A stretch of 64,000 bases of DNA from Lacinutrix sp. MedPE-SW. GTDB lineage: Bacteria; Bacteroidota; Bacteroidia; Flavobacteriales; Flavobacteriaceae. Of the stretch, positions 49,154 to 60,108 are shown in pieces. The stretch lies in the NCBI RefSeq assembly GCF_001874145.1, contig NZ_MPCX01000001.1, positions 372,001-436,000 on the forward strand. Direction: 5' to 3'. A program made the translations under genes and the position numbers. Every line of letters starts with the position of its first letter. Position 1 is the first letter of the stretch. Under the pieces are notes generated by a model. The model ran no database searches and was not told the DNA's origin. It was given only the letters and a program-made list of their open reading frames with translations.

Positions 49154-49281
49154 AATATTTTTAATGTGTTAGTGTTAAATTTTCGAAAGTAAATTTACAA
49201 ATTAGAAAATCTTTAAAACGTTAAGAAAAACTTAAAATAAGTTTGAAGATAATTACTTAACTATTAAATGAAAGTTAATTT

Positions 49282-49324
49282 TGTTTAACTATTTTAAAAA
49301 ATGATTAAACATTTTGTATCTTTA
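49282..49324 (+). promoter_or_regulatory. Operator-promoter P1 of the photolyase operon
   Basis: TGTTTAA (49282-49288) and TTAAACA (49305-49311) form a perfect 7-bp inverted repeat with a 16-base spacer, followed after five bases by a -7 element TATCTTTA (49317-49324). GTTAATTTT lies just upstream. P2 at 56378-56420 has the same half-sites, spacings and flanks. There is no canonical TTTG at -33, so activation or repression by a specific regulator is likely. The -7 element excludes the ATG at 49324 as start. Confidence 0.75.
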
Positions 49325-49344
49325 TGCCACTAATAGAGAAAATT

Positions 49345-50001
49345 ATGGCAAAAAAGAAAAACATTACGCAAAACAATATCACTTCATTTTATATGGATTA
49401 TGTATTAGAATATGACGAGAAACCTAAATCTGTATACATTTTTGCAAAGCATAATAATTTTGATGAATCTAAATTTTACGAATATTTCACATCATTTGAT
49501 GCCATAGAAAAACATGTTTTTAAAGCTTTTCATGATAATACAATTGCCGTACTAAATAAAAGTGAAGATTATCATGATTTCGAACCAAGAAACAAGTTAT
49601 TGAGTTATTACTTTACTTTTTTCGAAAACTTAACAGCAAACAGAAGTTACGTTGTTTATGCATTAAACAAACATAAAAATAACCTTAAAAATTACAGTGT
49701 ATTAAAAGAATTAAAGCACAGTTTTACTGCTTATATTTCAAACTTAGGTATTGAGTTAATAGATATAAAAGAAGAACGTCTAGATAAAATTCAAAATCGC
49801 GGATTAAAAGAAAGTGCTTGGGTACAGCTTTTACTTACAATGAAGTTTTGGATGGATGATACTTCTTCAAGTTTTGAAAAAACAGATGTATTTATAGAAA
49901 AATCTGTAAATACCAGTTTTGACGTGCTTAACGTTGCGCCACTTAAAAGTTTAATAGACTTTGGCAAATTTATTTTCAAAGAGAAAGTAAAAATGAATTA
50001 A
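49345..50001 (+). CDS. TetR-like transcriptional regulator
   Basis: 218 residues. The N-terminal 50 residues fit a TetR-type helix-turn-helix (KSVYIFAKHNNFDESKFYEYF), followed by helical ligand domain. Its recognition helix is not the commonest form, but the length and layout fit. I use the ATG at 49345 (MAKKKNITQN), 20 bases after the -7 element. It is the first gene of the operon carrying AarF kinase, reductases and photolyases, behind operator P1. It is the natural candidate for binding P1 and P2. Confidence 0.8.
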   Translation: MAKKKNITQNNITSFYMDYVLEYDEKPKSVYIFAKHNNFDESKFYEYFTSFDAIEKHVFKAFHDNTIAVLNKSEDYHDFEPRNKLLSYYFTFFENLTANRSYVVYALNKHKNNLKNYSVLKELKHSFTAYISNLGIELIDIKEERLDKIQNRGLKESAWVQLLLTMKFWMDDTSSSFEKTDVFIEKSVNTSFDVLNVAPLKSLIDFGKFIFKEKVKMN

Positions 50002-50017
50002 TTAAAACAATACACTA

Positions 50018-51328
50018 TTGAAAACGATAGACAAAATACCTACATCTAAAATTCAACGCGCTTCTAAACTTGTACAAACAGGTGCTAAAGTTGGTGTTAA
50101 TTATCTTAAATACTACGGTGACAAATTAACCAAGACCGAAGATGAAGCAAAGTCTCGACTTAATGAAAATAATGCCGAAGATATTTACGATGGATTAAAA
50201 AAAATGAAAGGTAGCGCATTAAAAGTTGCACAAATGCTAAGCATGGAAAAAAGTATTTTACCACAAGCTTATGTAGAAAAATTTTCACTTTCACAGTTTT
50301 CTGTACCACCATTATCTGCTCCACTAGTTACAAAAACATTTAAAAAATATTTTGGAAAGTTACCTAGCGAAATCTTTGATAAATTTAATGCAACATCTGT
50401 AAATGCTGCAAGTATTGGTCAAGTACATTTAGCCGAAAAAAACGGTAAAAAACTAGCTGTAAAAATTCAATATCCTGGTGTTGCAGAAAGTATTTCTAGC
50501 GACTTAGCAATGGTTAAGCCTATTGCCATTCAAATGTTTAATATTAAGGGCAAAGATAGTGACAAATACTTTAAAGAAGTTGAAACTAAACTGGTTGAAG
50601 AAACAAATTACATACTAGAAGTTAAACAAAGTAAAGAGATTGCTGCTGCATGTAAACATATTCCAAATTTAAAATTCCCAGATTATTATGAAGCACTTTC
50701 TTCTGAAAGAATAATAACAATGGATTGGATGGAAGGCGAACATTTAAGTGAATTTACAGCGTATAATACCAATCAAGAAAAAGCAAATAACATTGGTCAA
50801 GCTTTATGGGATTTTTATATGTTTCAAATGCATAAGTTAAAAAAAGTACATGCAGATCCACATCCTGGTAATTTTTTAATTTCTAAAAAAGGCGAATTAA
50901 TTGCTTTAGATTTTGGTTGTATGAAAACTATACCAGAAGATTTTTACACACCATATTTTGAGCTTGCTAAAAAAGAAAGCATAAATGATCCTAAGATTTT
51001 TAACGAGAAAATGTTTCAGTTAGAAATACTTCGTGAAGACGATTCTCCCGAAGAACTAAAATTCTTTTCAGCGTTATTTCACAAAATGTTAAGTCTTTTT
51101 ACTCAACCATTTCATGTTGATACTTTTGATTTTTCAGATGAAGCTTTTTTTGGAAAAATAACAGCCTTAGGTCAAAAATATAGTAAAAGTACAGAGTTAC
51201 GTAAAATGAATGGTAATCGTGGTTCTAAACACTTTATATACATTAACCGTACGTTCTTTGGGCTATATAATTTAATGTTCGACTTAAAAGCAAAAAACAT
51301 TAAAATTAATAATTTTCAAAATTTATAA
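50018..51328 (+). CDS. AarF/UbiB (ABC1) family protein kinase-like protein
   Basis: 436-residue atypical kinase of the ABC1/ADCK family. Recognisable: a variant KxGQ motif (KVAQMLS, Gly replaced by Ala), the ASIGQVH loop, the VAIK-type lysine in LAVKIQYPG, HADPHPGNF and DFG in LDFGCMK. UbiB members support quinone biosynthesis or lipid transport. The start is the TTG at 50018 and the gene is 16 bp after the regulator. No other quinone genes are near, so this copy may be a special member linked to light response. Confidence 0.9.
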   Translation: MKTIDKIPTSKIQRASKLVQTGAKVGVNYLKYYGDKLTKTEDEAKSRLNENNAEDIYDGLKKMKGSALKVAQMLSMEKSILPQAYVEKFSLSQFSVPPLSAPLVTKTFKKYFGKLPSEIFDKFNATSVNAASIGQVHLAEKNGKKLAVKIQYPGVAESISSDLAMVKPIAIQMFNIKGKDSDKYFKEVETKLVEETNYILEVKQSKEIAAACKHIPNLKFPDYYEALSSERIITMDWMEGEHLSEFTAYNTNQEKANNIGQALWDFYMFQMHKLKKVHADPHPGNFLISKKGELIALDFGCMKTIPEDFYTPYFELAKKESINDPKIFNEKMFQLEILREDDSPEELKFFSALFHKMLSLFTQPFHVDTFDFSDEAFFGKITALGQKYSKSTELRKMNGNRGSKHFIYINRTFFGLYNLMFDLKAKNIKINNFQNL

Positions 51329-51946
51329 ATGCAGTATTTTAGCTTAAAAGACATTAACGCATTAGAGCATTTATATAAAATAAATCTTATTAATAGTTGC
51401 TCTGGATTTAAATCTGCAAACCTTATTGCCACAAAATCTAAAGATGGTATTGAAAATGTTGCAGTATTTAGCTCTGTGACTCATGTAGGCTCAAATCCGC
51501 CAATTTTAGGTTTCTTTTGCAGGCCAACAACTGTTTTAAGAAATACGTTTAATAACATACAAGAAACAAAGGAATACACTATAAATCATATTCATGATTT
51601 AAATTTTAAAGATGCTCATCATACTTCAGCTAAATATGATGAAACAATTTCTGAGTTCGATAAAACAAATCTTACTCCTGAATATAAAAATGATAGTTTC
51701 GCACCATTTGTAAAAAATGCTCCTGTACAACTTAAAATGAAATACGTAGGAAAATACAATATTTCCCAAAATGACACCATATTAGTTTTAGGAGAAATAC
51801 AAGAAATGTACATTAATAATAGTATTTTAGAGACAGACGGTTTTATTAATTTATCTAAAGCGAATATTGCAGCTATAAATGGTTTAGATGCTTATACTTT
51901 TCCAGAATTAAAAGAACGACTACCGTACCAACGACCTAAAAAATAG
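51329..51946 (+). CDS. Flavin reductase-like domain protein
   Basis: 205 residues of the flavin reductase (FMN-binding split barrel) family; SCSGFKSANLIATKSK and VGSNPPILGFFCRP form the flavin site, and YTINHIHDLN follows. Such proteins reduce FMN or FAD with NAD(P)H or bind flavin. Its ATG directly follows the kinase stop codon with no spacer. A flavin supply for the FAD-containing cryptochromes downstream is an attractive inference. Confidence 0.88.
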   Translation: MQYFSLKDINALEHLYKINLINSCSGFKSANLIATKSKDGIENVAVFSSVTHVGSNPPILGFFCRPTTVLRNTFNNIQETKEYTINHIHDLNFKDAHHTSAKYDETISEFDKTNLTPEYKNDSFAPFVKNAPVQLKMKYVGKYNISQNDTILVLGEIQEMYINNSILETDGFINLSKANIAAINGLDAYTFPELKERLPYQRPKK

Positions 51947-51949
51947 AAC

Positions 51950-53374
51950 ATGAAAATATTAGTTACAGGTGCTACTGGTTACATTGGGAAACGTATTATA
52001 CCTTTATTAATAGAGCAAGGTCATACTGTAGTTTGTGCGGTACGAGGCAAACTTAGAACCGAAAAAAAATACAACGACGAGCATAATGTACAAGTCATTG
52101 AAGTAGATTTTTTAAATAAAAACACTCTTAAAAATATCCCTAAAGATATTGATGCAGCATATTATTTAATTCACTCCATGTCTAACTCTGTTTCTAAGTT
52201 TCAAGAAATGGAAAAAGAATGTGCTGTAAATTTTAAATTTGCTGTACAACAAACCCAGTGTAAACAAGTAATTTACCTAAGTGGCATTACAAACGACACA
52301 AAATTATCAAAACACTTATTATCTAGACAAAATGTAGAAAAAGCATTACAATCTAGTACATATGCATTAACGGTTTTTAAAGCCGGAATTATTGTCGGTT
52401 CTGGAAGCTCATCTTTTGAAATTATTAGAGATTTAGTAGAAAAACTTCCTGTAATGATTGCTCCAAAATGGCTTAACACAAAAACGCAACCTATTGCCAT
52501 TAGAGATGTGCTTTCATTTTTAACAAAAAGTCTTGGAGACCAACGTTTATATAATACATCTCATGATATTTTTGGGCCAGAAATTTTAACCTATAAAGCG
52601 TTATTACTTCGTTTTGCTAAAGCAAGAAACTTAAAAAGAAGCATCATTACAGTTCCTGTGATGACTCCAAATTTATCAAGCTACTGGTTGTATTTTGTAA
52701 CCTCTACATCATATAAATTAGCAAGAACATTGGTTAATAGTATGGGTGTAGAAATTATTGGTAAGCCTAGTAATATTAATACTTTACTAGACATAAAACC
52801 AATAAATTATGATCAAGCCATAAAGTTAGCATTCAAAAAAATAGAGCAAAATAGTATTCTCTCAAGCTGGAAAGATGCTTTGGTAAGTAGTCGCCAAAAA
52901 AAACGCGTTTCTACAAAGTACATTAATGTTCCAGAGTATGGTTGCTTTAAAGATATTAAAGAGCGAAAAGTTAAAAATGAAGAAAGAACTTTTGCCAAAA
53001 TTTGTGCTATTGGAGGCGAAAATGGTTGGTATTATGGTAATACCTTATGGAAAATTAGAGGCTATCTAGATAAGCTTTTTGGAGGAATTGGACTAAGACG
53101 CGGTCGCACAAATAAACATACAATAAAAACTGGTGATGCTTTAGACTTTTGGCGTGTATTACTCGCAGATCCAGAGCATAAAAGATTACTTCTTTTTGCC
53201 GAAATGAAACTTCCCGGAGAAGCTTGGTTAGAGTTTAAAGTTGAAAATGGAAAAGTATTCCAAAGAGCTATTTTTAGACCAAAAGGATTAGCCGGAAGAC
53301 TATACTGGTATAGCGTTTTACCGTTTCATGGCTTAATTTTTAATGGCATGATTAATAAACTTGCCAATGCCTAA
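51950..53374 (+). CDS. NAD(P)-binding SDR-type protein with DUF2867 domain
   Basis: 474 residues. The N-terminal atypical SDR domain (about 1-290) begins KILVTGATGYIGKRI with the GxxGxxG loop. The C-terminal DUF2867 region (about 320-470) contains FWRVLLADPEHKRLLLFAEMK-type blocks; I give the key part as LLFAEMKLPGEAWLEF. The combination is found in photolyase-linked operons of several bacteria, with an unknown reaction. It starts 3 bp after the flavin reductase and overlaps DUF2256 at its end. Confidence 0.9.
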   Translation: MKILVTGATGYIGKRIIPLLIEQGHTVVCAVRGKLRTEKKYNDEHNVQVIEVDFLNKNTLKNIPKDIDAAYYLIHSMSNSVSKFQEMEKECAVNFKFAVQQTQCKQVIYLSGITNDTKLSKHLLSRQNVEKALQSSTYALTVFKAGIIVGSGSSSFEIIRDLVEKLPVMIAPKWLNTKTQPIAIRDVLSFLTKSLGDQRLYNTSHDIFGPEILTYKALLLRFAKARNLKRSIITVPVMTPNLSSYWLYFVTSTSYKLARTLVNSMGVEIIGKPSNINTLLDIKPINYDQAIKLAFKKIEQNSILSSWKDALVSSRQKKRVSTKYINVPEYGCFKDIKERKVKNEERTFAKICAIGGENGWYYGNTLWKIRGYLDKLFGGIGLRRGRTNKHTIKTGDALDFWRVLLADPEHKRLLLFAEMKLPGEAWLEFKVENGKVFQRAIFRPKGLAGRLYWYSVLPFHGLIFNGMINKLANA

Positions 53375-53519
53375 ATCAATAAAAAAACAAAATTTACCTA
53401 CAAAAATTTGTAAAACCTGCAAGCTTCCCTTTAGCTGGCGAAAAAAATGGAAAACAAATTGGAACGATGTAAAATACTGCAGTAAAAAATGCCGAATAAA
53501 CAAAATAAAACCAGTTTAG
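53367..53519 (+). CDS. DUF2256 zinc-ribbon-like small protein
   Basis: 50 residues. CKTCKLPFSWRKKW and the later YCSKKCR give a C-x2-C and C-x3-C pair, a probable zinc site. The family is almost always encoded next to cryptochromes or photolyases. The ATG lies within the last codons of the preceding gene (8-bp overlap) and the 3' end overlaps Cry-DASH by 31 bp. It was missed by simple ORF length cut-offs. Its function is unknown. Confidence 0.9.
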   Translation: MPKSIKKQNLPTKICKTCKLPFSWRKKWKTNWNDVKYCSKKCRINKIKPV

Positions 53520-54802
53520 TCTGGTTTAAAAACGACTTAAGGATTAATGATAACGCAACACTTTTAAACGCTGTAAACGAAAGTGAAACCGTTATCGCTA
53601 TCTACTGTTTTGATAACAGGTATTTTAAAAAAGATAAATTCGGCTTTAAAAAAACCGAAAAATTTAGAGCCAAATTTTTAATAGAAACAGTAACCGATTT
53701 AAAATTCCAACTACTAGGGTTAAACATCCCTTTGTTTGTGTATTGTGATTATACAGAAAATAGTATAGAAATACTTCAAAACACTTATGGTTTTGATGCT
53801 TTGTACCTTCAAAAAGAATGGACTACAGAAGAAAATAAGATCTTAGATTTAGTTAAAAAGAAACTAAACCCAAATGTAAAAATTCATGAAGAATACAATC
53901 AATTTTTATTTCACCCTGAAGATTTAAATTTTAATGTTGAATCTTTACCTTCAGTTTTTACCGATTTTAGAAAAAATCTTGAAAAAAATATTTTAGTTAG
54001 AACTTTACTTCCTACTGCAAATCCGGCAAACAGTAGTTATACATTTAAAAACGAAACAAGAGTACCTACATTAAAAGATTTAGGTTTTAGTGATTTTAAA
54101 ATTCATAATCAATCTGCCTTTCCTTTTAAAGGTGGTGAAACCGAAGCTTTAAAAAGATTAGAAAATTATTTTTTTCAAGAAAAAAAACTTGGCTTTTATA
54201 AAAAAACAAGAAACGGATTAATTGGCACAGATTATAGCTCTAAACTTTCTGCCTGGCTGGCAAATGGAAGTATTAGTGCAAAAACCATTTATTGGAAAGT
54301 AAAAGAATTCGAAACACTTCATTTTAAAAACCAATCTACATATTGGTTAATTTTCGAACTCATTTGGAGAGATTATTTTAAGTATGTATCTAAAAAAAAC
54401 AACAATAAAATATTTAAAATTGGCGGTATTTTAGATAAAACGTATCAATGGAAAGATAATAAAGATGCCGTAAATAAATGGATTAATGGTGAAACAAACG
54501 AGCCTTTTGTAAATGCAAACATGAACGAATTAAATAAAACTGGCTGGATGAGTAATCGTGGCAGACAAAATGTTGCTAGTTATTTTGCAAAAGAACTCCT
54601 ACTCGACTGGCGCATTGGTGCTGCTTATTTTGAGTCTTTATTAATAGATTACGATGTGCATAGTAATTACGGGAACTGGATGTATGTTTCTGGCGTTGGT
54701 AATGATCCAAGAAATAGAAAATTTAATATAAAATTACAAGCAGAACGCTACGATGCTAACGGTAAATACCAACGCATATGGCTACAAAACACTTTATTTT
54801 AA
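53489..54802 (+). CDS. cry: DASH-family cryptochrome
   Basis: 437-residue FAD photoreceptor/photolyase. The opening TSLVWFKNDLRINDN and the later VNANMNELNKTGWMSNRGRQNVASY-type segment (key part NMNELNKTGWMSNRGRQ) match the DASH group. The C-terminal FAD domain has DWRIGAAYFES, YDVHSNYGNW and GNDPRNRKFN. DASH enzymes repair cyclobutane dimers in single-stranded DNA and may also signal. It overlaps DUF2256 by 31 bp in another frame. An antenna domain of the normal length is present. Confidence 0.93.
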   Translation: MPNKQNKTSLVWFKNDLRINDNATLLNAVNESETVIAIYCFDNRYFKKDKFGFKKTEKFRAKFLIETVTDLKFQLLGLNIPLFVYCDYTENSIEILQNTYGFDALYLQKEWTTEENKILDLVKKKLNPNVKIHEEYNQFLFHPEDLNFNVESLPSVFTDFRKNLEKNILVRTLLPTANPANSSYTFKNETRVPTLKDLGFSDFKIHNQSAFPFKGGETEALKRLENYFFQEKKLGFYKKTRNGLIGTDYSSKLSAWLANGSISAKTIYWKVKEFETLHFKNQSTYWLIFELIWRDYFKYVSKKNNNKIFKIGGILDKTYQWKDNKDAVNKWINGETNEPFVNANMNELNKTGWMSNRGRQNVASYFAKELLLDWRIGAAYFESLLIDYDVHSNYGNWMYVSGVGNDPRNRKFNIKLQAERYDANGKYQRIWLQNTLF

Positions 54803-54808
54803 ATTATT

Positions 54809-56341
54809 TTGAAAACACTTAGACTCATACTTGGCGATCAATTAAACAGCAAACACTCTTGGTACAAAGAAGACCAATCTAATTACATATATTGTTTATT
54901 TGAAATGCGTCAAGAAACAAATTATGTAAAGCATCACATACAAAAAATAATAGGTTTTTTTGCAGCCATGCGAGACTTTAAAACAGTTTTAGAACAAAAT
55001 AACTGTAAGGTAATTTATTACACATTAGACCATAAAAATAATACTCAAAATCTAGTTGAAAATTTAAAATATTTAATTAAAAAACACAATATAGAAGCGT
55101 TTGAATATCAAGAACCAGATGAATATAGACTTGATAAACAATTAGTAGAGTTTTGTGAAGAATTAAATATAAATACTAAAGCTGTTAGTACAGAACATTT
55201 TTATACCAACCGTAAAGACTTAGCATTATTTTTTAAAGGTAAAAAACAATGGTTAATGGAAAGTTTTTATAGAGATATGCGAAAAAAACATAACATTTTA
55301 TTAGTCGCTAACCAACCAGAAGGCGGCAAATGGAATTATGATAAAAGCAATAGAAATAAATGGAATGAAAACACAAGCATTCCTAAGTATAAATCTTATA
55401 AAAACAACGTAGTAGATATAGTAAATTTAATAGAGTCTCAAAACATAGAAACCATTGGTAAGTTTAATACCGAGTATTTTGAATACCCCATAAATAGATC
55501 TCAAGCTTTAAATCAACTAAAATACTTTTGCGAGCATTTACTAAAACACTTTGGCGATTACCAAGATGCAATGCACACAAATCAAGCTTATTTGTACCAT
55601 TCTAGGCTATCCATTGCTTTAAATAGTAAAATTATTTCTCCAAATGCAGTAATTACAACCGTTTTAAACTATTGGAGAACTCACGGTAAGCATATAAGTA
55701 TCTCTCAAGTTGAAGGTTTTATTAGGCAAATTATTGGCTGGAGAGAATATATGCGCGGTATGTATTGGGCTTTAATGCCAGATTATAAATTGTTAAATAC
55801 TTTAGAAAACCATAACAAACTTCCTGAGTTTTATTGGACAGGAAAAACAAAAATGAATTGCCTTAAAACTTCTATAGAAAACACTTTAAATAATGGATAT
55901 GCTCACCATATTCAACGTTTAATGATTACTGGAAATTTTGCCTTATTAACGCAAATAAATCCAGACGAAGTCGATGCTTGGTATTTAGGTATATATGTAG
56001 ATGCTATAGAATGGGTTCAATTACCAAATACTAGAGGCATGAGCCAATTTGCAGATGGCGGAAAAATAGCAACAAAACCTTATGTTTCTAGTGGTAGTTA
56101 CATAAACAAAATGAGTAACTATTGTAAAAATTGTACTTATAATAATAGAGAAAAAACAAGCGATAATGCTTGCCCATTTAATAGTTTGTATTGGAACTTT
56201 TTAGACGACAAAAGAGAAATGCTTAGCGCAAATTTTAGAATGAAAATGATGTATAGCTTGCTCGATAAAATGAAGCCCGAAGATTTAAATAAAATAAAAA
56301 AAAGAGCTTCAAAAATAATTAGTAATCCTGATAACTTTTAA
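54809..56341 (+). CDS. FeS-type bacterial cryptochrome/(6-4) photolyase (FeS-BCP)
   Basis: 510-residue member of the FeS-BCP group (PhrB/CryB type), which repairs (6-4) photoproducts or acts as a light sensor and carries a [4Fe-4S] cluster. Four cysteines are at positions 351, 439, 442 and 455 (KMNC, YCKNC, ACPF); they align within one residue of the cluster ligands known in Rhodobacter CryB. FAD-domain motifs include QIIGWREYMRGMYW and PNTRGMSQFADGG. The TTG at 54809 is the start (KTLRLILGDQL). It is the last gene of the first operon, 6 bp after Cry-DASH. Confidence 0.93.
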   Translation: MKTLRLILGDQLNSKHSWYKEDQSNYIYCLFEMRQETNYVKHHIQKIIGFFAAMRDFKTVLEQNNCKVIYYTLDHKNNTQNLVENLKYLIKKHNIEAFEYQEPDEYRLDKQLVEFCEELNINTKAVSTEHFYTNRKDLALFFKGKKQWLMESFYRDMRKKHNILLVANQPEGGKWNYDKSNRNKWNENTSIPKYKSYKNNVVDIVNLIESQNIETIGKFNTEYFEYPINRSQALNQLKYFCEHLLKHFGDYQDAMHTNQAYLYHSRLSIALNSKIISPNAVITTVLNYWRTHGKHISISQVEGFIRQIIGWREYMRGMYWALMPDYKLLNTLENHNKLPEFYWTGKTKMNCLKTSIENTLNNGYAHHIQRLMITGNFALLTQINPDEVDAWYLGIYVDAIEWVQLPNTRGMSQFADGGKIATKPYVSSGSYINKMSNYCKNCTYNNREKTSDNACPFNSLYWNFLDDKREMLSANFRMKMMYSLLDKMKPEDLNKIKKRASKIISNPDNF

Positions 56342-56377
56342 AACAAATCACTAGTTACTAATATTTTTGTTAATTTT

Positions 56378-56420
56378 TGTTTAATTAAAACTCAAAAACA
56401 TTAAACATTTTGTATTTTTG
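56378..56420 (+). promoter_or_regulatory. Operator-promoter P2 of the second photolyase operon
   Basis: TGTTTAA (56378-56384), 16 bases, TTAAACA (56401-56407), 5 bases, then TATTTTTG (56413-56420), preceded by GTTAATTTTT. All spacings equal those of P1; 12-14 bases around the right half (ATTAAACATTTTGTAT) are identical. The downstream ATG is at 56446, giving a leader of about 22 bases. Confidence 0.75.
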
Positions 56421-56445
56421 AAATCATAGAGCAAACCTTTATTAT

Positions 56446-56871
56446 ATGATTTTAAATACAACACATACTAACAAAGAAAACAAAAGACTTTTAATAGATG
56501 TTGTTGGTAAACCTTTTAGTTTCAGGCAAATTATCAAATTAAAAGGTGTAGGTTCTAAACGAATGATAATAGAAAATGTTAGTCCAAATATTGCACAATA
56601 TCTCAATAAAATTTCAGATGTAAATTATGCTAATATAGAATTAAGACCAAAAGGAATTTTAATTCATATAAATAAAGGACTAAAAAACTTTACTTGGGCA
56701 ATACCATATTACCAACTTGTAATTTATAAAACAAATGGTTCTAGCATTCATGCTCAAGGAAAATTTATTCATTTTAGAAACAATAAAACTTTAAAGGAAA
56801 ACAAAGGTTTTTTTAATAAATTAATGAATCAAAAAATAAAATTCGATGAACAATATAATTTCCAAACCTAA
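56446..56871 (+). CDS. Protein of unknown function, first gene of second operon
   Basis: 141 residues, basic, no signal peptide or membrane helix. KGVGSKRMIIENVSPNIAQ and the TWAIPYYQLVIYKT strand look like a compact mixed alpha/beta or PH-like fold, but I do not recognise the family. It follows operator P2 by 25 bases and its end overlaps the next gene by 26 bp. Its position suggests a role in the light or UV response, with no direct evidence. Confidence 0.8.
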   Translation: MILNTTHTNKENKRLLIDVVGKPFSFRQIIKLKGVGSKRMIIENVSPNIAQYLNKISDVNYANIELRPKGILIHINKGLKNFTWAIPYYQLVIYKTNGSSIHAQGKFIHFRNNKTLKENKGFFNKLMNQKIKFDEQYNFQT

Positions 56872-57145
56872 TGCGGTTTTTACTATAGAAGATATAGATA
56901 GAATTATAGAAATGGCTTGGGAAGATAGAACACCTTTTGATGCTATTACATTTCAATTTGGCATAAAAGAACAAGAAGTTATTGAGTTAATGAGGCGAGA
57001 AATGAAACCTAGTAGTTTTAGATTATGGCGCGCTAGAGTTCAAGGTAGAAAAACCAAACACGCAAAAAATAGAAATTTTCAGGAAGGAAGATTTAAATGT
57101 TCTAGACAAAAACAAATTACACATAATAAAATAAGTAAAAGGTAA
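56846..57145 (+). CDS. TIGR03643 (DUF2805) family protein
   Basis: 99 residues, highly basic C-terminus. The block DIDRIIEMAWEDRTPFDAI followed by GIKEQEVIELMRREMKPSSF and RLWRARVQGRKTKH is the family signature. It resembles a small helix-turn-helix protein. Members occur near photolyase and cryptochrome genes in many bacteria; their role is unproven. It overlaps the preceding gene by 26 bp and lies 34 bp before the SDR gene. Confidence 0.88.
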   Translation: MNNIISKPNAVFTIEDIDRIIEMAWEDRTPFDAITFQFGIKEQEVIELMRREMKPSSFRLWRARVQGRKTKHAKNRNFQEGRFKCSRQKQITHNKISKR

Positions 57146-57179
57146 CTAGCGCTTTTGCATTACATTAAACAAATTTAAA

Positions 57180-57863
57180 ATGAAAAATATACTTATAATT
57201 GGCGGAAGCAAAGGCATTGGAAACGCCATAGTAAAACAACTAATAGATACTAATAATATTATAAATATTAGTCGCTCTACTCCTGCTTTATCTCATAAAA
57301 ATTTAAGACATATAAGTGCAGATGTTTTAGAAGATGAACTTCCAAAAATTGAAGCCATAGACACCTTAATTTATTGTCCTGGAAGTATAAATTTAAAACC
57401 AATTTCTAGGTTAAGCTTAGATGATTTTAAAGCAGATTTCGACATTAATGTTTTAGGCGCTGTAAAAAGCATACAACATTATCTACCAATTTTAAAAAAA
57501 GGAAATAAGCCATCAATACTACTATTTAGTACCGTAGCAACGGCATTAGGTATGCCTTATCATGCCAGTGTTGCCGCTTCTAAAGCTGCTGTAGAAGGTT
57601 TAACAAAATCTCTTGGCGCAGAGTTAGCACCAACTATAAGAGTTAATGCCATTGCACCAACAGTTACAGATACAGATTTAGCTTCAAAATTATTGCGCAA
57701 TGAAAAAATGATTGACAATATGAATGAACGTCACCCATTAAAAAAATTCTTGCAACCAGACGAAATAGCAGAAATGGCAAGTTTTTTAATATCAAACAAA
57801 GCTGCATCAATTTCTGGTCAAATTTTTAAAATGGATTGTGGTATTGTTAGTTTTAAAATTTAA
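57180..57863 (+). CDS. Short-chain dehydrogenase/reductase with altered active site
   Basis: 227 residues of the classical SDR fold. The nucleotide loop is GGSKGIG and the Asn/Ser elements (CPGSI, LLFSTVA) are present. The catalytic Tyr of Y-x3-K is replaced: the segment HASVAASK places Val131 four residues before Lys135. The same feature recurs in light-cluster SDRs as I recall. The protein may therefore bind NAD(P)H without normal reductase activity or use another residue. It is the third gene of the second operon. Confidence 0.9.
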   Translation: MKNILIIGGSKGIGNAIVKQLIDTNNIINISRSTPALSHKNLRHISADVLEDELPKIEAIDTLIYCPGSINLKPISRLSLDDFKADFDINVLGAVKSIQHYLPILKKGNKPSILLFSTVATALGMPYHASVAASKAAVEGLTKSLGAELAPTIRVNAIAPTVTDTDLASKLLRNEKMIDNMNERHPLKKFLQPDEIAEMASFLISNKAASISGQIFKMDCGIVSFKI

Positions 57864-57906
57864 TAAAACAACAATCTTTTAAATAAATAGTACTCAAAAT
57901 ATTAAT

Positions 57907-58368
57907 ATGAAAATATACCGTTTACATAAAAAACAAAACTTACCAATAAGCAAATCTCAAGCCTGGGAGTTTTTATCAAGTCCTAAAAACTTAAAAACAA
58001 TAACTCCAGATTATATGGGTTTCAATATTCTTTCTGGCGGAGACAAACCAATGTTTGCAGGACAAATAATACAATATATAGTAACACCAGTTTTAGGTAT
58101 TAAAACAAAATGGGTAACAGAAATTACACATGTTGTAGACGGCGAATATTTTGTAGACGAACAACGTTTTGGTCCATATGCTTTATGGCATCACAAACAT
58201 TTTATTAAAGAAATAGATGGTGGCGTTGAAATGGAAGATATAATAGATTACAAATTACCTATGGGTTTTCTAGGGCAATTAGTTCATCCTATTTTAGTAA
58301 AACCTAAATTAGAAGAAATATTTAATTATAGAACAAATAAGCTAGAAGAATTATTTGGCAAATATTAA
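57907..58368 (+). CDS. SRPBCC (START-like) family protein
   Basis: 153 residues with the helix-grip pattern: the PISKSQAWEFLSSPKNLKTITPDYMGF opening (key part QAWEFLSSPKNL), the EQRFGPYALWHHKHFIKE strand region and the C-terminal IFNYRTNKLEELF helix. Such proteins hold hydrophobic ligands. The gene lies 43 bp after the SDR gene and 3 bp before the photolyase gene. SRPBCC genes recur in photolyase clusters. Confidence 0.88.
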   Translation: MKIYRLHKKQNLPISKSQAWEFLSSPKNLKTITPDYMGFNILSGGDKPMFAGQIIQYIVTPVLGIKTKWVTEITHVVDGEYFVDEQRFGPYALWHHKHFIKEIDGGVEMEDIIDYKLPMGFLGQLVHPILVKPKLEEIFNYRTNKLEELFGKY

Positions 58369-58371
58369 ACT

Positions 58372-59676
58372 ATGAGTAAAACTGTAAACATTTTTTGGTT
58401 TCGTAGAGATTTAAGATTAGATGATAATGTTGGTTTTTTTGAAGCACTAAAAGCCGAACATCCCGTACTGCCAATTTTTATTTTTGATTCTGAAATATTA
58501 GATGAATTACCAGAAAACGATGCCCGTGTAAGTTTTATTTTTGAAACATTGCAAAACATGAGGCAAACATTACAAGATGAAAATAATAGCAGTCTAGCGA
58601 TGTTTTACGGTAAACCAATAGATATTTATAAGTCTTTAATTAAAGATTATAACATTAATACTGTTTACACCAATCATGATTATGAGCCATACGCAAAAGA
58701 AAGAGATAGTGAAATACAATCGTTTTTAGAAGAAAATAAAATTAACTTTAAAACTTATAAAGATCAGGTAATTTTTGAAAAAAACGAAGTAGTAAAAGAC
58801 GACGGTAAACCTTATGTAGTATACACTCCATACATGAAAAAATGGAAATCTAAATTTAAAGATTATGATTTAAAAATTTACTATACCAATACATTTTTAA
58901 ATAATTTAATTGAAAATACAAGGCTACCTAATTTAAGTTTAAGCGATATAGGTTTTAAAAAATCTAGTCAGGATATTAAAGACTATACTGTAACTCCTAC
59001 TTTGATACGAGATTATGAAGCTACAAGAAATTTTCCAGCCAAAGATACCACTTCACGTTTAGGTCCGCATTTAAGATTTGGCACTGTAAGCATTAGAAAA
59101 ATGGTAAAAAAAGCAACTGCAGAAAATAACGAGATTTTCTGGCAGGAACTTATATGGAGAGAATTTTTCATGCAAATTTTATGGCATTTTCCAGACACAC
59201 ATAAAGATGCATTTAAAGCTAAATACGATAATATTAAATGGCGAAACAATAATAAAGAATTTAAAGCTTGGTGCGATGGAAAAACTGGCTATCCTTTAGT
59301 AGATGCTGGAATGAGACAATTAAATCAAACCGGCTTTATGCATAATCGTGTACGCATGCTAGTTGGCAGTTTTTTATGTAAACACTTACTTATAGATTGG
59401 AGAAAAGGCGAAGCTTATTTTGCCCAAAAACTTCATGATTACGATATGGCTAGTAATGTAGGTAATTGGCAATGGGTTGCTGGATCTGGAGTAGATGCAT
59501 CTCCATATTTTAGAATATTTAATCCTACTACGCAAATAGATAAGTTTGATAAGGACAAAAAATATATAAAACAATGGATTCCAGAATTTGGTACAGATAA
59601 ATACCCAGAAAAAATTGTAGACCATAAAGAAGCTAGAGAACGCTGTTTAAAAGTTTACAAAGACGCTGTAGCATAA
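58372..59676 (+). CDS. phrB: Class I CPD photolyase (deoxyribodipyrimidine photolyase)
   Basis: 434-residue FAD enzyme that uses blue light to split cyclobutane pyrimidine dimers. The antenna-domain start VNIFWFRRDLRLDDN and FAD-domain motifs TSRLGPHLRFGTVS, WRxFxMQI-type and DAGMRQLNQTGFMHNRVRM (key part NQTGFMHNRVRM), then DWRKGEAYFAQKLHDYD and SNVGNWQWVAGSG are all present. It ends the second operon. This is the third photolyase/cryptochrome of the region, with a role distinct from the other two. Confidence 0.95.
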   Translation: MSKTVNIFWFRRDLRLDDNVGFFEALKAEHPVLPIFIFDSEILDELPENDARVSFIFETLQNMRQTLQDENNSSLAMFYGKPIDIYKSLIKDYNINTVYTNHDYEPYAKERDSEIQSFLEENKINFKTYKDQVIFEKNEVVKDDGKPYVVYTPYMKKWKSKFKDYDLKIYYTNTFLNNLIENTRLPNLSLSDIGFKKSSQDIKDYTVTPTLIRDYEATRNFPAKDTTSRLGPHLRFGTVSIRKMVKKATAENNEIFWQELIWREFFMQILWHFPDTHKDAFKAKYDNIKWRNNNKEFKAWCDGKTGYPLVDAGMRQLNQTGFMHNRVRMLVGSFLCKHLLIDWRKGEAYFAQKLHDYDMASNVGNWQWVAGSGVDASPYFRIFNPTTQIDKFDKDKKYIKQWIPEFGTDKYPEKIVDHKEARERCLKVYKDAVA

Positions 59677-59745
59677 ATAATAATTTCTTAACTTATTCAT
59701 TATTAGTTTTTTGTATATTTATAAACCAACCAAAAAACAAATAGT

Positions 59746-60108
59746 ATGAATACACAAGATGTTGCTAACCAATGGAAAACTATGTGCGAACAAGGTAAAA
59801 ACCTTGAATGTATTGAACAATTATATGCAGAAAATATTGTAAGCAGAGAAATGCCTGGAATGCCAAACGAAGTTACTACTGGTAAACAAAATGTTTGGAA
59901 TAAAAGTAAAGCATGGGAAGATAGCGTAGAAAGTGTTCACGCTAGTGAAATTGGAGAACCTGTAGTTGCAGGTAATTTTTTTACTGCCAAAATGGGTTTT
60001 GATTGTACTTTTAAAGAAGGCGGCAGACAGAAAATGGAAGAAGTTTGTGTTTATGAGGTAAAAGATGGTAAAATTACCAGTGAACAATATTTTTATAGTA
60101 TGCCATAA
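59746..60108 (+). CDS. SnoaL-like (NTF2 fold) protein
   Basis: 120 residues with one NTF2-like domain: DVANQWKTMCEQGKNLECIEQLYAENIVS opening (key part CIEQLYAENIVS), then GKQNVWNKSKAW, and the FYDVKDGKI-type end VYEVKDGKITSEQYF. The fold hosts enzymes and ligand binders; no catalytic residues are sure. It lies 69 bp after phrB, with a possible -7 element (TATATTTA, 59714-59721) of its own. A terminator follows. Confidence 0.85.
   Translation: MNTQDVANQWKTMCEQGKNLECIEQLYAENIVSREMPGMPNEVTTGKQNVWNKSKAWEDSVESVHASEIGEPVVAGNFFTAKMGFDCTFKEGGRQKMEEVCVYEVKDGKITSEQYFYSMP

Follow-up and report, generated by a model that had tools for sequence, protein, structure and literature searches.

Two operons of photolyase-type genes follow one another in the flavobacterium Lacinutrix sp. 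MedPE-SW, each headed by a promoter, P1 or P2, that carries the same inverted repeat, and the question they raise is which protein reads this repeat and in answer to what signal. Both lie in a stretch of 64,000 nucleotides (contig NZ_MPCX01000001.1, positions 372,001 to 436,000 of the forward strand; assembly GCF_001874145.1), hereafter the window, in which position 1 is the first letter. A first-pass annotation of this DNA had proposed a single regulon for light or ultraviolet (UV), with the TetR-like protein encoded by the first gene of the P1 operon binding the repeat. As a whole, that interpretation is partly supported. Judging from sequence comparisons, P1 and P2 are quite probably operators of a LitR/CarH-type MerR regulator that is encoded elsewhere in the genome, together with carotenoid genes, and that would repress both operons in the dark and release them in the light. 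The elements concerned are the following, all on the plus strand:

49274..49278, plus strand, GTTAA, a possible accessory half-site of P1 (offset class found in relatives; the role is a proposed one)
49282..49311, plus strand, P1 operator TGTTTAA-N16-TTAAACA, read from the window sequence and kept in relatives
49317..49324, plus strand, P1 -7 box TATCTTTA, 5 bp past the right arm
56369..56373, plus strand, GTTAA, a possible accessory half-site of P2 (offset class likewise found in relatives; the role again a proposed one)
56378..56407, plus strand, P2 operator TGTTTAA-N16-TTAAACA, read from the window sequence and kept in relatives
56413..56420, plus strand, P2 -7 box TATTTTTG, 5 bp past the right arm

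Both elements read TGTTTAA-N16-TTAAACA-N5-TAnnTTTR in the window, as first described, and have in common a GTTAA flank that starts 8 bp (P1) or 9 bp (P2) upstream of the left arm. They are the only occurrences of the bare palindrome at 0 mismatches in the window; allowing up to 3 mismatches raises the count to 43, where shuffles predict 36.9, so that only exact window matches are informative. We also searched the organism's own genome (3.04 Mb, 22 contigs), with the backwards pattern as control. The palindrome occurs exactly three times (control, 1), and with the -7 box at 0 mismatches it occurs at P1 and P2 only; at 3 mismatches, 9 and 10 matches stand against 7 and 6 in the control.

Comparison across 149 genomes of the family (148 genera) recovered the full element in 76 genomes, at 107 sites, and the backwards pattern in none of the 149. 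We fetched 79 stretches, 78 of them picked at sites, which cover 96 of the 107 sites, and took as target the first recognised same-strand gene within 900 bp. These targets are the TetR gene (47), the gene for a 141-amino-acid (aa) protein that opens the P2 operon (24), a FabH-like gene (6), a gene first labelled SRPBCC (6) and s54, which encodes a 54-aa protein (6) and has photolyase genes downstream in 5 of its 6 cases. Five more sites precede SDR (short-chain dehydrogenase), TspO, TIGR03643, photolyase or flavin reductase genes, and two precede none that we recognised. Upstream of the TetR and 141-aa genes, the spacer is 16 in 71 of 94 arm pairs (at up to 1 mismatch), and among 67 exact sites 64 have the -7 box 5 bp past the right arm. 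The earlier remark that no canonical -33 box is present also holds among relatives, since TTTG is found 18-21 bp ahead of the box at 2 of the 64 sites that lie upstream of the TetR or 141-aa gene. A wider scan with a stricter P1 pattern, using one genome per species (84,980 species), gave 49 stretches, whose titles are flavobacterial except for one labelled only Bacteroidia. Forty-six of these matches lie upstream of TetR (36), the 141-aa gene (5), s54 (4) or SRPBCC (1); the other 3 lie within about 600 bp of the stretch end and cannot be judged.

A search of the genome for MerR-type genes identified a 308-aa protein (C18:20173-21099) that heads the series merR-crtI-crtB-crtZ-crtY, in which the crt names rest on the Pfam domains Amino_oxidase, SQS_PSY, FA_hydroxylase and Lycopene_cycl. 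Its closest solved relatives are the Thermus CarH structures 3whp and 5c8d. Pfam detects an N-terminal winged-helix domain, MerR_1 (53.5 bits, cut-off 21.6), and the four-helix domain B12-binding_2 (PF02607; 39.2 bits, cut-off 23). In CarH, the residues W131, E141, H142 and H177 hold adenosylcobalamin (AdoCbl), according to the accessible part of PMC11796333. All four are present in the protein of our strain, and their equivalents are kept in 80, 80, 74 and 80 of the 80 MerR orthologues that we examined, out of 122 matches in 120 of the 149 genomes. These features suggest a LitR/CarH-like regulator with a putative light dependence.

The same 80 orthologues served to inspect the merR locus itself, with strands taken from translation. 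Between the merR stop and crtI, the palindrome is found in 36 of 80 loci exactly and in 44 at up to 1 mismatch; a CrtI match follows in all 44, and in 42 a TAnnTTTR box ends exactly at the right arm. Upstream of merR, 53 of 80 loci carry the palindrome at up to 2 mismatches. The yardstick, 25 of 926 other gene starts with the palindrome at the same tolerance of 2 mismatches (10 exact), uses annotated strands and is not fully cleared of genes beside known sites. In the commonest upstream form, seen in 47 merR genes when up to 3 mismatches are allowed, the left arm lies 23 bp upstream of the ATG and the right arm spans the start codon; in 40 of the 47 a TAnnTTTG box ends in the left arm. Coding partly fixes the right arm in this form, so it is the left arm and the box that are informative. 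At least one such arrangement (crtI-side, start-codon, or an upstream site at up to 1 mismatch) is found at 67 of 80 merR loci. Our strain has the start-codon form with 2 mismatches and no crtI-side site.

The operator also appears to vary with the protein. In a divergent MerR group, a lysine (K) replaces an isoleucine (I) in the recognition helix. Upstream of the eight K-type merR genes, TGTCTAA-N16-TTAGACA fits better in 6, TGTTTAA in 1 (a weak fit, with 3 mismatches), and one is a tie; upstream of the 69 I-type genes, TGTTTAA fits better in 66 and 3 are ties. An exact TGTCTAA palindrome occurs in 7 of 149 genomes, four of which have a K-type MerR (G032, G038, G066, G135). The other three carry an I-type MerR and look like chance, because the backwards control also matches in 4 genomes. 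In G038, the P1 position is occupied by TGTCTAA-N16-TTAGACA, followed by TetR-ABC1 and photolyase genes, while G066 and G135 have mixed sites before TetR, with one arm of each kind. G025 and G007, whose MerR is divergent but keeps the isoleucine, have TGTTTAA sites. Sequence covariation of this kind is a strong hint that the fourth base of the operator changes with the recognition-helix residue.

Presence across genomes points to the same protein. A site in either searched register (photolyase or crtI type) occurs in 92 of 149 genomes, and MerR is present in 90 of these; the two without a match, G079 and G147, are only 81% and 73% complete. MerR is found in 74 of the 76 genomes with the photolyase-type motif, and 2 of the 29 MerR-less genomes have a site. 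TetR has a match in 75 of the 92 site-bearing genomes and none in 17; it is present in 68 of the 76 motif genomes, missing from 8, and present in 27 of the 73 others.

The position of the -7 box relative to the end of the right arm falls into three classes: +5 at the photolyase operons, -15 at crtI, FAS1 (fasciclin), rhodopsin and other genes, and -36 at merR. Subtraction gives steps of 20 and 21 bp between these offsets, each close to two turns of the helix, which may mean that the same helix face is used. The second register, with the box inside the spacer, was found in 58 of 149 genomes at 88 sites (backwards control, 0 of 149). We examined 46 of these 88, picked mainly away from merR, and ran Pfam on a single representative of each of six groups (FAS1, Porph_ging, kinase, desaturase, rhodopsin and MsrA). 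The FAS1 lipoprotein cluster accounts for 24 targets (one only as a 40-aa fragment), Porph_ging proteins for 9, GHMP kinases for 3, desaturases for 2 and CrtI-like proteins for 2; a bacteriorhodopsin-like protein, MsrA and a flavin reductase-like protein occur once each, two targets could not be assigned, and one site has no open reading frame (ORF). The third exact palindrome of our own genome (G000:C18:122383-122412; L003 1501-1530) belongs here: it fits the second register with 0 mismatches and precedes an ORF for a FAS1-domain lipoprotein (L003 1558-2538), and the sister genome G091 has the same second-register palindrome before its FAS1 gene. We had taken it for a chance occurrence, as no box lies 5 bp downstream, and dropped that view on finding that it fits the crtI register.

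Together, the shared operator in 76 genomes, the wide scan, the second register and the co-occurrence with MerR support the earlier proposal of one regulon. Control by light or UV is supported only indirectly: the regulator is of the LitR/CarH type, and the genes found together are those for carotenoids, photolyases and, in one relative, a rhodopsin. By analogy with CarH, the MerR protein, loaded with AdoCbl, would sit on the inverted arms in the dark and cover the promoter; light would break the cobalt-carbon bond and release the protein from the operator, and carotenoid, photolyase and other stress genes would come on together. The operator lies over the -33 zone in the photolyase type, around the -7 box in the crtI type and over the start in the merR type. 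All three placements would block RNA polymerase, which favours dark repression with release by light. That the protein physically binds the sites, represses rather than activates, is loaded with AdoCbl and answers to light is what we infer here.

Several known systems resemble this arrangement, and we compare them as far as the accessible parts of the sources go. In the dark, CarH with AdoCbl bound sits as a tetramer on an operator that overlaps the promoter; in the light the tetramer comes apart (PMC8156234). CarA and CarH of Myxococcus xanthus and CarH/LitR of Thermus and Bacillus likewise join a MerR DNA-binding domain to an AdoCbl-binding domain, are encoded beside crt genes and have operators over promoters (PMC8156234). 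By eye, the right arm TTAAACA of P1 and P2 fits 4 of the 5 specified bases of the CarH 11-bp unit nAnnTnnACAn. Unlike CarA/CarH, the regulator proposed here would have photolyase operons and FAS1 genes among its targets. Photolyase, cryptochrome and GTP cyclohydrolase are among the light-inducible genes linked to the class II LitR proteins PplR and PmlR of Pseudomonas (PMC9758184); these, however, have retained only one of the two B12 domains and act together with short LOV proteins, whereas the AdoCbl-ligand residues are kept here. In Vibrio cholerae a MerR-like gene lies in a photolyase operon and photolyase genes go up in blue light, but ChrR is used as well, and the accessible text describes no common operator that we found (PMC5241685). 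Within the family, crt genes of Chryseobacterium lacus are raised by light, although another gene is the speculated regulator there (PMC7064467), and in Nonlabens a MerR-family gene comes first in the crt cluster (PMC11855829). Neither an operator nor a photolyase regulon was found in the accessible parts of these two reports, and those of the Dokdonia PRO95 paper (PMC3587595) have no word on photolyase, cryptochrome, MerR or fasciclin. We considered MliR of Bizionia as the regulator and ruled it out, as it is described as MerR-like without an effector domain (PMC9478572, accessible part).

As far as those sources go, other bacteria are already known to have LitR/CarH photoreceptors and to have photolyase, cryptochrome and FolE genes linked to LitR (PMC9758184, PMC5241685), and Flavobacteriaceae are known to have light-raised carotenoids and a MerR gene in a crt cluster (PMC7064467, PMC11855829). 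Among the matches listed in our literature search, which had most of the subscription literature outside its scope, titles and abstract openings described neither the operator and its registers nor its photolyase, FAS1 or rhodopsin targets, nor any photolyase regulon under LitR/CarH in Bacteroidota.

A number of points weigh against assigning the operators to a light-released LitR/CarH-type protein. The Rossmann B12-binding model of Pfam (PF02310) is not matched by the MerR of our strain, though the CarH alignment spans the region (query 128-229). In the operator, two inverted arms stand 23 bp apart (16-bp spacer), sometimes with an accessory GTTAA, unlike the three or four tandem 11-bp repeats described for CarH, including that of Thermus, in the part of the literature accessible to us; we treat the tandem direct-repeat operator as a variable feature within the LitR/CarH family. 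Promoters without a good -33 box leave room for an activator, and binding and expression are predicted from sequence. Thirteen of the 80 merR loci (8 of these 13 are K-type) lack counted TGTTTAA-type sites, and the K group is essentially one lineage, so that the covariation may be a single event. The association of crt-register sites with MerR is partly built in, because many such sites lie at merR. Finally, where a close MerR is present, 65 of 86 genomes with TetR have the photolyase-type site versus 8 of 25 without TetR. Within 300 bp upstream of TetR, five genomes with MerR (G007, G014, G040, G010, G033) have no site, and G084, also with MerR, has one at 2 mismatches only.

The alternative that survives best, though we consider it unlikely, keeps MerR as the binder and replaces the signal: the protein could respond to cobalamin or redox state, or act like CarA without needing B12. 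Myxococcus CarA keeps its B12 motif and yet acts without B12, as the accessible part of PMC8156234 has it, and the poor -33 boxes could fit activation. Nevertheless, each ligand residue for photolysable AdoCbl is retained by between 74 and 80 of the 80 orthologues, and the target genes have photoprotective roles.

Decidedly unlikely is the proposal that the TetR-like protein is the repressor. It draws on the 47 of 96 sites that directly precede a TetR gene and on the co-occurrence of TetR with the motif, both among all genomes and among those with a close MerR. Yet 17 of the 92 site genomes lack TetR, and the merR-crt locus, which bears the site, has no TetR gene. In MerR-bearing genomes, crt-register sites are equally frequent with TetR (44 of 92) and without it (13 of 28; P=1.0); sites of either register taken together lean towards TetR (73 of 92 versus 17 of 28; P=0.08). 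Among 15 TetR upstreams inspected (300 bp), 8 have a site at up to 1 mismatch and G084 has one at 2 mismatches only, while G059, with TetR and no MerR match, has none. The earlier assignment of the repeat to TetR is therefore not supported and probably wrong, and the protein is, from these comparisons, better seen as a frequent target than as the binder. The commoner photolyase-type site in TetR-bearing genomes fits that role, and TetR may also be a helper.

A third protein such as TIGR03643/DUF2805 is a very improbable binder: its gene is often beside sites, it has a weak match of helix-turn-helix type and it is present in 60 of the 76 motif genomes, but it is absent from the other 16 and MerR tracks the site better. 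That P1 and P2 resemble each other through recent copying, or by chance in an AT-rich genome with many loose matches, has a negligible probability and is already contradicted by arms and -7 offset kept in 76 of the 149 genomes while the spacers diverged, by the dominant 16-bp spacer and by the empty backwards control.

If a LitR/CarH-type MerR does read these sites, the consequences extend beyond the two operons. Tentatively, and with rather less than even confidence, we propose that one B12-type photoreceptor runs a light programme across the Flavobacteriaceae through a single operator at three offsets on the same helix face. Besides pigment and DNA repair it would take in surface proteins (FAS1 lipoproteins and Porph_ging proteins, which we take to be GLPGLI-like), isoprenoid supply, methionine repair and, in some genomes, a rhodopsin. 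With its inverted 23-bp layout, the operator would represent a way of binding DNA that is new for CarH-type proteins. The site L337 (G122:C114:63441-63470) is an operator before a bacteriorhodopsin-like gene, a hint that the regulon can include rhodopsin itself. Flavobacteria are major heterotrophs of the surface ocean, and to our knowledge their light sensing is poorly known. A single candidate regulator, a single operator and a brief list of targets would make the flavobacterial light response, including control of photolyase and in places rhodopsin, directly testable. They would also give a common trigger to proteins of unknown function (the 141-aa, TIGR03643, DUF2256, FAS1 and Porph_ging proteins), and this trigger would be tied to the supply of cobalamin.

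The genes downstream of P1 and P2, all on the plus strand, are as follows:

49345..50001, plus strand, TetR-like protein (Pfam TetR_C_23, E 2e-46), likely a target rather than the binder
50018..51328, plus strand, ABC1/AarF-type kinase-like protein (Pfam ABC1)
51329..51946, plus strand, flavin reductase-like protein (Pfam Flavin_Reduct)
51950..53374, plus strand, NmrA/NAD(P)-binding and DUF2867 protein (Pfam/NCBIfam)
53367..53519, plus strand, DUF2256 protein of 50 aa (Pfam/NCBIfam)
53489..54802, plus strand, photolyase/cryptochrome family protein (Pfam/NCBIfam), earlier labelled Cry-DASH, a putative subtype
54809..56341, plus strand, photolyase-related protein DPRP, FeS-BCP type (Pfam DPRP)
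56446..56871, plus strand, 141-aa protein, first gene of P2-type operons in relatives
56846..57145, plus strand, TIGR03643/DUF2805 protein (Pfam and NCBIfam)
57180..57863, plus strand, short-chain dehydrogenase (Pfam/NCBIfam)
57907..58368, plus strand, 153-aa protein, earlier labelled SRPBCC
58372..59676, plus strand, DNA photolyase (Pfam/NCBIfam), earlier labelled as acting on cyclobutane pyrimidine dimers (CPD), a putative subtype
59746..60108, plus strand, SnoaL-like protein (Pfam SnoaL_5), possibly the last gene of the P2 operon, as it follows the photolyase in some relatives

The start of the TetR-like gene was set at 49345 because the ORF start at 49324 falls inside the promoter box. Most of the labels in the first-pass annotation are borne out by Pfam or NCBIfam (TetR, ABC1, flavin reductase, NmrA with DUF2867, DUF2256, the photolyases, DPRP, DUF2805/TIGR03643 and SDR), the exception being SRPBCC: the 153-aa protein has no Pfam match at E<=0.01. 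The 141-aa protein has no match in Pfam (E<=0.01) or NCBIfam. The TIGR03643/DUF2805 protein (56846-57145) has a match below cut-off to NirdL-like_HTH (E=0.006) and may bind DNA. P2-type operons of relatives also hold GTP cyclohydrolase I, glutathione peroxidase and TspO. The FabH-like gene sits in TetR-ABC1-FabH or FabH units that are divergent from htpG; HtpG was considered as a target and rejected, as the box of the site between htpG and TetR or FabH points away from htpG.

Some further variation was seen in the operators. Of 142 distinct operators of relatives, 46 have GTTAA in direct orientation 8-9 bp ahead of the left arm and 24 have TTAAC 7-20 bp ahead of it; either may be a third half-site. 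Among the 94 arm pairs, minority spacers are 26 (11 pairs, a secondary peak) and 8-9 (10 pairs). The Porph_ging sites of the second register are L352, L355, L365, L371, L383, L387, L388, L338 and L349. At the TetR-ABC1 loci L062 and L075, a second palindrome lies beyond ABC1, between it and the neighbouring gene, and lacks a box in the usual register.

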